Assembly: GCA_020849765.1 (NCBI GenBank)
Contig: JADLAY010000034.1
Span: 1 to 64,000 of the forward strand
Direction: 5' to 3'
From: Anaerolineae bacterium
GTDB lineage: Bacteria > Chloroflexota > Anaerolineae > Aggregatilineales > Phototrophicaceae
DNA: 64,000 bases
Made by a program: the position numbers and the translations under genes. The notes beneath the pieces are model-generated. The model had not been told where the DNA came from and did no database searches. It worked only from the letters and a program-made list of their open reading frames with translations. Of the stretch, positions 4,118 through 7,186 are shown one piece after another (the first letter of the stretch is position 1; every line of letters begins with the position of its first letter).

Positions 4118-4364
4118 AGGCGAGGGCAACTGCACGAGGACGAGTTGAGTGCGCATCTCCAGCGCCAAATGAGCGCCATGCCTGAGGCTGAAGATGTGTA
4201 CTGACCTCGTCCTTGCCTTCGCAGCCGATCCGCCGCGGCAACCATAGGGATCGCGCTGCATCCACCCCACTCTGAAAATCTATCATCTCGGGTCAGGTCG
4301 TCCAGGCATTCCTGAGTCACGCCATTTCATCGGGTGACGGGAATACAGCGAGAGGAGCACAACC

Positions 4365-5072
4365 ATGATCGGCAGCGTGCAGCCAGGACAGCAGGCATAC
4401 CCGTTACAACGTGCCTCACGCAATGAGGAGAGGTTTGCCGCCGTTTTCGCCCTGATCGCCGGGTACGCCGATGCCTATGCCTACGTGCAATTTCGGACGT
4501 ACGTGTCTTTCATGAGCGGCAACACGACCACGGTCGGCTCGATGACCGGCCAGGGTAATTACGGAGCAGCGATCCTCTCGCTGGTAGCCATTGTCTCCTA
4601 CGTCATCGGTGTTTTCAGTGGCACCTTGCTGTCGAACTCCGGCCTACGCCGTCCTCACCGGCTTCTGTTTGGGATCATCGCCGTCCTGCTGGCGGTCGTC
4701 GTCGCGATCACCCAGCTCGATAGTGTCGCCAGTGCAATCTGCATCGCACTGCTGAGTCTGGCCATGGGGCTCATGAATACCACCCTCTCCCACGTCGGTG
4801 CACAATCGGTCAACCTGGTCTTTGTGACCGGGACATTGAGCAGGATGGCGAGCCACCTGGCACTCGCGTTTGCCCATGCGCCGCTCCCGGATGCGCAAGG
4901 CCCGTGGGATACGCATCGCAGGCGGGCATACCTGCTCATGGGCGTCTGGGGCTCGTTTCTCGTCGGCGCGCTGGCGGGAGGATTCGCCACCGCTCACTTC
5001 GGCGTAGGCGTTTTGCTCATCCCCGCGTTGATCCTCATCGCACTGGCGGTGTTCGATTACATGCCAAAGTGA
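4365..5072 (+). CDS. YoaK/DUF1275 family membrane protein
   Basis: A 235-residue membrane protein with about six hydrophobic helices. The DUF1275 signature is visible near the N-terminus: a G-Y-A-D-A-Y pattern, then FMSGNTT about 20 residues later, and later GLMNTTLS followed by VTGTLSRM. Family members are small inner-membrane proteins of unknown function. GAGAGGAG lies before the ATG. It stands alone between the oxalate decarboxylase and the redox module with no evident operon partner. Confidence 0.88.
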   Translation: MIGSVQPGQQAYPLQRASRNEERFAAVFALIAGYADAYAYVQFRTYVSFMSGNTTTVGSMTGQGNYGAAILSLVAIVSYVIGVFSGTLLSNSGLRRPHRLLFGIIAVLLAVVVAITQLDSVASAICIALLSLAMGLMNTTLSHVGAQSVNLVFVTGTLSRMASHLALAFAHAPLPDAQGPWDTHRRRAYLLMGVWGSFLVGALAGGFATAHFGVGVLLIPALILIALAVFDYMPK

Positions 5073-5253
5073 GATCGCTCTGGATTTCCCACAACACGTT
5101 GCTGCGGGGCGCAAGAAATTTGTGCCCCTTATTACTTCTATCCCTGCCACTTCAAACGTTTGTCATGACTTAAGCCCATGGTCGTTGAAAACCTTCAAAC
5201 ACAGATTTAGAGTCAAAGGGTCACCATCGGCAGGGATGCGAATCGGAACCGGA

Positions 5254-5520
5254 ATGCAGAAGATCAACTTACTCGTGTGCATGGGATCAGCCTGCCACCA
5301 GAAGGGTGTTTACCACCTGCGGACAGCACTGCAAAAGCTGCTGACAGACCATCGTTTGGAAGCACAAGTGGAACTCAAAGGCGCCTTCTGCCTGGGCCCA
5401 TGTATGAATGCAATCGTCCTGAAAGTCGGCGACCAGTTAATCCTGAACGTGACGCCGGAGAATGTTGAGCAGAAGTTTGCCGACGACATTCTGCCGCTGC
5501 TCGCTGAAGTGAATGGCTAA
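5254..5520 (+). CDS. [2Fe-2S] thioredoxin-like ferredoxin (NuoE C-terminal type)
   Basis: An 88-residue thioredoxin-fold ferredoxin. Four cysteines, C9 and C14 (CMGSACH) and C46 and C50 (CLGPC), have the spacing of the [2Fe-2S] site in the C-terminal domain of NuoE/HoxE-type subunits. The frame is open upstream to 5122, but homologous domains begin just before the first cysteine, so ATG 5254 is chosen; ATG 5236 is an alternative. It is followed after five bases by the PAS gene. Such stand-alone proteins commonly accompany [FeFe]-hydrogenases and their sensory homologues, where they pass electrons; here no hydrogenase is adjacent. Confidence 0.82.
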   Translation: MQKINLLVCMGSACHQKGVYHLRTALQKLLTDHRLEAQVELKGAFCLGPCMNAIVLKVGDQLILNVTPENVEQKFADDILPLLAEVNG

Positions 5521-5525
5521 GCCTG

Positions 5526-6026
5526 ATGCAAAGCAAGAGTCTGTGGGAACAGTTGTGGGATTATGACCCGAACGGATTGATCGTCCTCGACAAGAACCTG
5601 CGGGTACAGATCGTCAACCCGGCGCTCTGCCGCATGTTCGGGATTGAGGCCGAGGCCATCATCGGCGAACTGGCGGCTTCGTTTCTGGACGACGTGGCCG
5701 AGTTCCGCGAAGCGTGGGATCGCCACATGATGATCCCGTCCCGCGAGCATTATTACGCGCAGTACGGGCTCTACGTGCGCAAGGTCATCTTCACGATCCC
5801 CGATCAGGAGATCATCGCCTGCATCATGGTCGACCTCACCCACGAACAACAGCAGCGCGAAGAATTGCAGCGCCTGAAGCGCGAAACGATCGCCAAAGTG
5901 AACGAGGTCGTCGATAACCAGATGAAGGTCGCTCAAGAGATCGCGGGCTTGCTGGGCGAGACCACTGCCGAAACCAAGGTCAGCCTGCTGCGGCTCCGTC
6001 AAATCGTAGAACAGGACATCGTGTGA
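5526..6026 (+). CDS. PAS-domain protein resembling the C-terminus of sensory [FeFe]-hydrogenases
   Basis: A 166-residue cytosolic protein. One PAS domain (about 10-110, starting DPNGLIVLDKNLRVQIVNPA) is followed by a helical tail ending AQEIAGLLGETTAETKVSLL. From family memory this tail closely resembles the end of group C (HydS-type) [FeFe]-hydrogenases, which carry ferredoxin, H-cluster and PAS domains. Here only the PAS and tail remain; no cysteine-rich H-cluster region exists upstream. Its stop overlaps the phosphatase start (GTGA), so the two are translationally coupled and probably interact. The ligand is unknown. Confidence 0.78.
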   Translation: MQSKSLWEQLWDYDPNGLIVLDKNLRVQIVNPALCRMFGIEAEAIIGELAASFLDDVAEFREAWDRHMMIPSREHYYAQYGLYVRKVIFTIPDQEIIACIMVDLTHEQQQREELQRLKRETIAKVNEVVDNQMKVAQEIAGLLGETTAETKVSLLRLRQIVEQDIV

Positions 6027-7186
6027 CGATGGACTGCTTCCTCGACATCTGGTACGACAGCCTCAATAAGTCCGGCGAGGAGCTGTGCGGCGACAAGGTC
6101 AAGGTGCTCAAGACCGAGCACAAAACCATCGTCGTCTTGTCTGATGGGCTGGGCAGCGGTGTCAAAGCCAACATCCTGGCCACGCTGACCGCTGAGATCA
6201 TCGTGACCATGCTGCGCGCCGACGTGCCGCTCAAAGAAGTCGTCAGCACGGTGATCGGTACGCTGCCGGTGTGCAAGGTGCGCGAGATCGCTTACGCCAC
6301 CTTCACCGCCATCGAAATAGACCACGAGACCAACAGTTTCAAGATCTTCAACTTCGACAATCCGCCCACCTTCCATTTTCGCAATGGCCGGCACGTCGAG
6401 CTCAACCGGACGTCGGAAATCATCCTCGGCAAGCAAATCTCAACGGCAGAGGGACAGCTGGAACGCGGCGATCTGCTGGGCGTTGTCTCCGATGGGATTC
6501 TGCATGCGGGGATGGGCAACCTGTGGAATTTCGGCTGGGAGTGGGAGAACGTCGCCGCACACATGGAGCAACTGCTGCGCTCAAGTTCGCGCGCCAAGCC
6601 GATCGTACAGGGGCTTGTCAGCAAGACGCAGTCGCTTTATGGGCAGCAGGTCGGCGACGACGCCACCTTTGTCGGCATCTATGCCAGGGAACGACACAGC
6701 CTGATGGTCTTCACCGGCCCGCCGCTGGACAGGATGACCGATGAGTATCAGGCGCAGCGACTGCTGGACTTTGAAGGCCGCAAGGTCGTATGTGGCGGCA
6801 CCACGGGCACCATTCTGGAAAGCTATCTGGGCGAAGTGATCGACGTCGACCTGTCGACACTGCGAGACGATGTGCCCCCGATTGGGCGGTTGAGCGAGAT
6901 TGACCTGCTGACCGAAGGCATCATCACGATGTCCCATGCGCTGGACTACATGCGCGAGTGCGCAGGTGAGGAATTTCGTCTGCCCCGCGATCGCAACGGG
7001 GCGACGCTTTTGGCACAAGAATTGCTCCGGGCTGATTCGGTCTTTTTCCTCGTCGGCCAGCAGATCAACGAGTTCTACCAGAACCCACTGCTGCCGCGAA
7101 ATCTCTCGATTCGCAAGAATCTCGTGCTGGAAATCAGCCAGTTCCTTCGTGAACACAACAAGGAAGTCCGGATCGAGTTCTGCTGA
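6023..7186 (+). CDS. SpoIIE-family (PP2C-type) protein serine phosphatase
   Basis: A 387-residue soluble phosphatase. Metal-binding aspartates appear in CGDKV (D24), LSDGLGSG (D41), VVSDGILHAG and GDDATFVGIY, covering the first ~230 residues. The C-terminal part (about 240-387, with VCGGTTGTI and VPPIGRLSEIDLLTEGI) is the extra domain typical of SpoIIE proteins encoded with sensory hydrogenases. The start is GTG 6023, overlapping the PAS stop by four bases; ATG 6029 is an alternative. It would dephosphorylate a partner protein, perhaps an anti-sigma antagonist, in response to the redox or PAS signal. No such partner lies in the window. Confidence 0.87.
   Translation: MTMDCFLDIWYDSLNKSGEELCGDKVKVLKTEHKTIVVLSDGLGSGVKANILATLTAEIIVTMLRADVPLKEVVSTVIGTLPVCKVREIAYATFTAIEIDHETNSFKIFNFDNPPTFHFRNGRHVELNRTSEIILGKQISTAEGQLERGDLLGVVSDGILHAGMGNLWNFGWEWENVAAHMEQLLRSSSRAKPIVQGLVSKTQSLYGQQVGDDATFVGIYARERHSLMVFTGPPLDRMTDEYQAQRLLDFEGRKVVCGGTTGTILESYLGEVIDVDLSTLRDDVPPIGRLSEIDLLTEGIITMSHALDYMRECAGEEFRLPRDRNGATLLAQELLRADSVFFLVGQQINEFYQNPLLPRNLSIRKNLVLEISQFLREHNKEVRIEFC

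Follow-up and report, generated by a model that had tools for sequence, protein, structure and literature searches.

A stretch of 64,000 nucleotides from the genome of an Anaerolineae bacterium (positions 1 to 64,000 of contig JADLAY010000034.1, referred to below as the window) encodes, one after another, a thioredoxin-like protein, a short PAS protein and a SpoIIE-type phosphatase. We consider it probable that these genes constitute a derived, H-cluster-free version of the HydS/SpoIIE module and act as a redox or ligand switch, in which the thioredoxin-like (Trx) and PAS proteins drive the phosphatase via a C-terminal helix. HydS itself, a group C [FeFe]-hydrogenase, was termed putatively sensory owing to its PAS domain, and its signalling route is stated as open (PMC8163306, PMC8924675, PMC10055695). 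In the related group D enzyme, the redox state of the C-terminal [4Fe-4S] cluster was found not to be the switch (PMC13104023).

The three-gene module at positions 5254-7186, described in the original prediction, is confirmed by both the open reading frames and the Pfam domains. All three frames are intact and lie on the forward (+) strand: the Trx-like protein P0001 (88 aa) at 5254..5520, the PAS protein P0002 (166 aa) at 5526..6026 and the phosphatase P0003 (387 aa) at 6023..7186. The predicted spacing, a 5-base gap between the Trx and PAS genes (5521-5525) followed by a GTGA overlap between the PAS and phosphatase genes (6023-6026), holds given the GTG start of the phosphatase gene at 6023; an alternative ATG start at 6029, which is equivalent to the start codon of the closest relative (L039, see below), leaves a 2-base gap after the PAS gene instead. 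Upstream of the module are DUF1275 and cupin genes, and it is followed by genes for a LacI regulator and a sugar ABC system; redox enzymes are not adjacent to the module within the window, where the operon stands alone. A terminator-like hairpin of 10 pairs (5106..5128, + strand) and a promoter-like site, TTGAAA-17-TAGAGT (5185..5213, + strand; 9/12), were found by consensus scan. Each is weak evidence, and shuffles yield 2.0 sites like the hairpin in this region. Because the hairpin and the promoter-like site separate the DUF1275 gene from the Trx gene, the module is probably its own transcription unit.

P0001 matches the 2Fe-2S_thioredx family (PF01257) in a Pfam search (E-value 2.3e-8, 34.5 bits, cut-off 24.8) and, in sequence comparison, resembles the Trx portions found in Fe-hydrogenase subunits and in NuoE/HydC. 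Its predicted cluster ligands are C9, C14, C46 and C50, and the four ligand cysteines are identical in 13 of 13 aligned copies from short modules. Judging by these ligands and the fold, P0001 is predicted to be a thioredoxin-like [2Fe-2S] ferredoxin. It shares the C-x4-C ... C-x3-C ligand pattern and the PF01257 fold family with NuoE/HydC-type [2Fe-2S] proteins; unlike them, it is a stand-alone protein without the NuoE N-terminal helical part, and the genes that accompany its own code for a PAS protein and a phosphatase. Its gene lies directly 5' of the PAS gene, which is a feature of the HydS-linked SpoIIE signalling module.

P0002 corresponds to the C-terminal part of HydS. It matches PAS_4 (PF08448, E-value 7e-8) and PAS_9 (PF13426, E-value 5e-7), and its AF2 model (pLDDT 84) contains a complete PAS core (residues 14-103, positions 5565..5834, delimited by AF2 secondary structure and Foldseek) followed by one long helix (residues 105-165, positions 5838..6020), in the distal part of which the pLDDT drops to 62-69. 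The C-terminal PAS domain expected of HydS is thus seen in the Pfam matches, in the AF2 fold and in the similarity to HydS. The rest of HydS is absent: PF02906 (Fe_hyd_lg_C, the H-cluster domain) has no match in P0002 in the Pfam search, and P0002 lacks the N-terminal 2x[4Fe-4S] ferredoxin domain and the C-terminal Cx2Cx4Cx16C [4Fe-4S] site that are features of HydS (PMC8163306). The only two cysteines of this 166-aa protein are C35 and C99, and the original prediction was right that the H-cluster and ferredoxin domains are missing.

The original prediction had also noted that the end of the PAS protein resembles the end of group C HydS, and this resemblance turned out to be close. The conserved tail motif comprises residues 132-154 (QMKVAQEIAGLLGETTAETKVSL; positions 5919..5987, + strand), which are near-identical to their HydS counterparts: Q132, M133, I139, A140, L143, G144 and E145 are present in 100% of 41 HydS sequences, and T147, A148, K151 and L154 in 93-98% of them. 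All these positions are also conserved in the two clades of short PAS proteins described below (clades I and II), and when all three groups (short I, short II, HydS) are compared the tail is the most conserved part, the PAS core being far more variable. When the 39-aa tail alone was searched against 72,556 plasmid records (7.3 Gb), it matched only three, and all three also carry a HydS gene together with a matching SpoIIE phosphatase. In one of them, from Acetoanaerobium, ~0.9 Mb separate HydS from the SpoIIE phosphatase; that both are kept though unlinked fits a functional pair. Chance similarity was rejected by this search, by the residue conservation and by the scores of P0002 against HydS loci (62-117 bits), which relate both the PAS domain and the tail to HydS; at the level of sequence, the resemblance to group C HydS is real and specific. 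What the original prediction missed is that a complete PAS domain precedes the tail, which forms a long signalling helix, and that relatives of the module stand beside other redox enzymes. The tail motif is a candidate for the contact with the phosphatase.

Two further properties of the PAS protein were considered and set aside. The fold search did not lead to a ligand assignment, the Foldseek matches being generic PAS domains (LOV, FixL, DosP and NtrB). C35 is present in 94% of clade I and absent from HydS, and a cysteine at this position is common among generic PAS domains; we therefore make no claim of a clade-specific redox cysteine.

P0003 matches SpoIIE (PF07228) with an E-value of 7e-21 (75 bits), and the top Foldseek match of its AF2 model (pLDDT 90) is B. 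subtilis SpoIIE (E-value 2.3e-15). The acidic residues D24, D41, D157, D212 and D213 are invariant in the family, and P0003 is predicted to be a phosphatase from its PP2C catalytic domain and metal-binding Asp residues of the SpoIIE/RsbU kind. B. subtilis SpoIIE, RsbU and RsbX share this fold and these acidic residues with P0003, but P0003 additionally has a C-terminal domain (residues 225-387, positions 6695..7183, + strand) with CGGTT and TEG motifs, in which G258, G259, T297, E298 and G299 are invariant in 26 sequences. This domain has no Pfam match and lies outside the best PDB structural matches, which cover ~228 columns in Foldseek, i.e., PP2C alone; it may contribute to substrate choice. 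The arrangement of a tail-motif PAS gene immediately 5' of its cognate two-domain SpoIIE phosphatase gene, on the same strand and coupled to it, is that of the HydS-linked module.

Since the original prediction described a signalling module without its hydrogenase, the whole genome to which the window belongs (6.35 Mb, 95.6% complete) was searched for a HydS encoded elsewhere. PF02906 has 0 matches in the genome, with Thermotoga maritima as a positive control that was detected, and the H-cluster maturase HydG has no match there either; a hidden HydS was therefore rejected. Neither of the two findings that would have told against the original prediction, a HydS elsewhere in the genome or a PAS protein unrelated to HydS tails, was made. 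The genome does contain, away from the module, three group-3-like [NiFe] hydrogenase clusters, which on gene content we would name HoxFUYH with a probable maturation protease (L128, contig C69), Hdr-Mvh-like (L127, contig C28) and 3b-like (L129, contig C32).

Relatives of the module were collected by scanning GTDB genomes with the phosphatase alignment, and the best 80 of 121 loci were kept and classed by the gene 5' of the phosphatase gene; they were picked by similarity, so that the class proportions are not frequencies. Among these best 80 of 121, 17 further loci encode a short PAS protein (164-199 aa) and no hydrogenase part and form clade I together with the window. These 17 come from four phyla, with members in Chloroflexota (Aggregatilineales, Anaerolineae, Bellilinea, Ornatilinea), Cyanobacteria (Oscillatoria, Microseira), Verrucomicrobiota (four members) and a Geobacter MAG (two members). 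Three more short PAS loci, all in CO dehydrogenase (CODH) operons, form clade II (L089, L112 and L115), and in the remaining 60 of 60 the phosphatase gene follows a full-length HydS gene. The phosphatase was found in 18 of 249 sampled genomes of the window's class, three of them of the short type (the window, J111 and Bellilinea), and in 2 of 400 genomes of a phylum-wide sample at E<=1e-40, and the module is absent from the sampled genomes of the window's genus and family. The closest relative among the best 80 of 121 loci, L039, is 84% identical in SpoIIE and 79% in PAS.

Group C (M2f) putative sensory HydS systems, represented by TmHydS and R. albus HydS, have the same gene order, Trx-(HydS)PAS-SpoIIE, in R. 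albus pRUMAL01 and in Monoglobus, and they share with the window module a homologous PAS domain, a near-identical tail motif and a homologous phosphatase (37-45% identity). The difference is one of length and content: full HydS proteins have 552-645 aa against 166 aa in the window, where H2 binding at an H-cluster is impossible.

The original prediction left two directions of evolution open: the module may have discarded hydrogen sensing, or it may be an ancestral unit that later acquired a hydrogenase. In the SpoIIE tree, clade I (100/100) is nested among clostridial phosphatases that are linked to HydS (95/93), and clade II is placed next to HydS of Atribacterota (84/87); the concatenated PAS and phosphatase tree has the same nesting (98/94 and 97/93), and in the PP2C-only tree clade I is again deep among clostridial HydS. 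As clade I falls within HydS-linked lineages in both the phosphatase and the concatenated trees, the history we favour is that an ancestral HydS lost its hydrogenase part, once or twice. The converse scenario, in which Trx-PAS-SpoIIE came first and HydS arose by insertion of the ferredoxin, H-cluster and [4Fe-4S] domains before PAS, draws on the PAS-only tree, where one branch (98/92) parts all short PAS proteins from all HydS, so that nesting within HydS is not seen when PAS is analysed by itself. It is also compatible with a single origin of all short forms, which the AU tests did not reject (p=0.112 and 0.323). The nesting in the other three trees speaks against it, and so do the AU tests, which rejected a basal position both of the short forms outside a monophyletic HydS (p=0.029) and of clade I alone (p=0.0058); all AU results depend on the outgroup, L034/L035, which is imperfect and may itself be derived. 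With the very distant B. subtilis SpoIIE (PDB) as outgroup, the root falls close to clade II; this placement is poorly supported (35/74), and no conclusion was drawn from it, the outgroup branch of 8.3 being too long. On balance, we regard the ancestral-unit scenario as distinctly unlikely, and loss, the first of the two predicted directions, is supported, with the reservation that what was discarded is strictly the H-cluster. The phrase "without the hydrogenase" gives an incomplete picture: responsiveness to H2 or redox state may persist indirectly, because close relatives of the module adjoin catalytic [FeFe] or [NiFe] hydrogenases or CODH.

These neighbourhoods are varied. The L039 module is directly 3' of hydB-hydA, and its HydA belongs to group A6 (863 bits, cut-off 765). 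In Oscillatoria and Microseira (L041-L043, about 4140-6170), the module is behind HoxU/HoxY/HoxH-like [NiFe] genes, with hypA downstream in L041 and L042, and is a candidate for an unrecognised regulator of the cyanobacterial bidirectional [NiFe] hydrogenase. In L048 and L052, whose genomes have no HydA, it is behind a CBS gene, nuoE and nuoF. The clade II operons (L089:4167-6762, L112:2551-10908 and L115:3643-11146; Spirochaetota and Planctomycetota) combine the Trx-PAS-SpoIIE module with cooS (664 bits in L089) and genes resembling cooF, and nuoE is found 3' of the phosphatase gene in all three, along with nuoF and a HoxU-like gene in L112 and L115; a role as a CO or redox switch is possible there. 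With relatives beside two kinds of hydrogenase and CODH, the module looks more like a redox switch that can be reused than like a sensor for hydrogen alone. With a confidence that falls somewhat short of even, we extend this to HydS as a whole, which may be one version of a wider switch whose constant parts are PAS, the signalling helix and the SpoIIE-type phosphatase, usually with the [2Fe-2S] Trx protein, whose H-cluster is an optional input, whose H-cluster-free forms stand beside Hox in cyanobacteria, HydABC/NuoEF in Chloroflexota and CODH in Planctomycetota/Spirochaetota, and whose substrate is outside the RsbV/SpoIIAA switch.

The frequent location of the module inside hydrogenase or CODH operons, and the NuoE/HydC C-terminal type of its Trx protein, could also mean that Trx and PAS are not sensors and instead serve a hydrogenase or NADH-linked complex as accessory components for electron transfer or assembly. 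We find this very improbable, since the constant partner is a phosphatase while the operon enzyme varies ([FeFe], [NiFe], NuoEF, CODH or none), and, among the 18 loci of clade I, six (L049, L050, L051, L053, L054 and L055) have no adjoining Trx gene, unlike the window. Because of these six loci, Trx is not an obligatory part of the module.

In some clade I copies, including L040, L046, L047 and the window, no redox gene is adjacent. Such copies, together with the LacI regulator and sugar ABC system downstream of the window module and the generic PAS folds matched by its PAS model, are what would be expected if P0003 were an ordinary PAS-regulated, RsbU-like stress phosphatase outside redox control in this organism, sensing, for example, a metabolite for sugar-use genes. 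This is unlikely in our judgement: a Trx protein with all four cluster cysteines is retained directly in front, L039 with its 84% identical SpoIIE is behind hydB-hydA, the terminator-like hairpin sets the upstream gene apart, and the window genome yielded no substrate of the RsbV type. That a hydrogenase adjacent in L039 is not adjacent here, and that sampled genomes of the genus and family have no module, might alternatively mark the three genes as a decaying remnant of a lost hydrogenase operon with no current function, but the three intact frames, the retained acidic residues and cluster cysteines, and the 79-84% identity of the proteins to those of L039 make this reading hardly credible.

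The output of the proposed redox or ligand switch is unlikely to be a canonical partner switch acting on a STAS anti-anti-sigma substrate, because the only STAS domain in the window genome, the single PF01740 match, is within a SulP transporter. STAS_2 (PF13466) has no match in this 95.6% complete genome, which, unlike B. subtilis SpoIIE/RsbU/RsbX systems, yielded no RsbV/SpoIIAA-type STAS substrate. Among 44 HATPase_c_2-like matches, the shortest frame has 246 aa and nearly all have at least 350 aa, so no small RsbW-like protein stands out. The substrate would then be non-canonical, unless it is too divergent for the STAS models or is encoded in the missing 4% of the genome.

We infer the course of signalling, from the Trx electron flow, the PAS ligand and the tail-SpoIIE contact to the substrate and the regulated genes, as follows. 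An ancestral HydS would have lost its ferredoxin, H-cluster and C-terminal [4Fe-4S] domains, leaving PAS and the signalling helix as a separate protein. The [2Fe-2S] Trx protein would accept electrons from the redox pool or a partner enzyme, and its redox state, plus any ligand bound by PAS, would alter the PAS dimer. The long helix with its invariant QM...EIA.LLGETTAE.K motif would then act as an on/off control of the neighbouring SpoIIE-type PP2C phosphatase, and the dephosphorylated target would tune the expression or activity of hydrogen- or NADH-linked redox enzymes. Enzymes of this kind are encoded next door in relatives (HydABC, Hox, NuoEF, CODH) and would be regulated in trans in the window genome, HoxFUYH being an example.

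A PAS protein is likewise tied to the control of a [NiFe] hydrogenase in the regulatory hydrogenase with the PAS subunit HoxJ (PMC8163306), but there the partner is a histidine kinase and not a phosphatase, and no regulatory hydrogenase subunits are encoded alongside the window module. In the open-licence literature, we found no paper that describes an H-cluster-free form or names SpoIIE together with HydS. For an actinobacterium, one figure legend (PMC7325909) names nuoE, phoR and spoIIE in the surroundings of hox and hydABC, and, as far as this legend goes, the set is possibly a module of the same kind annotated gene by gene. Natural H-cluster-free versions in which both PAS tail and phosphatase persist direct attention to the helix-phosphatase pair as the output of HydS, and, having no oxygen-sensitive H-cluster, they offer a compact system of two proteins for testing HydS signalling. 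They also suggest that there is an unrecognised regulator beside the [NiFe] Hox hydrogenase of some cyanobacteria and beside CO dehydrogenase.

Several other features were observed among the relatives. An APH-like kinase gene is 5' of HydS in 12 of the 60 HydS loci (e.g., L078:538-1293) and could encode a counter-kinase of the phosphatase; with 12 of 60 loci, it is not a general partner across HydS operons. In L027 (8628-10064), the Trx gene is followed directly by the SpoIIE phosphatase gene with no PAS or HydS gene between, and the sole PF02906 match of that genome is on another contig. L034 and L035 (Chloroflexota) encode divergent phosphatases of ~30% identity with no PAS gene in front, near NuoE/NuoF-like genes. 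The L039 MAG has HydA (PF02906, 330 bits) and no HydG match, so either this MAG is incomplete or maturation differs. In the genomes of L053 and L054, HydA shares a contig with another PF02906 protein of lower score, which would match the HydS-operon pattern. The Geobacter MAG, GAC1, has two short PAS and SpoIIE pairs on different contigs (L054 and L055), both without Trx, and also encodes two PF02906 proteins.
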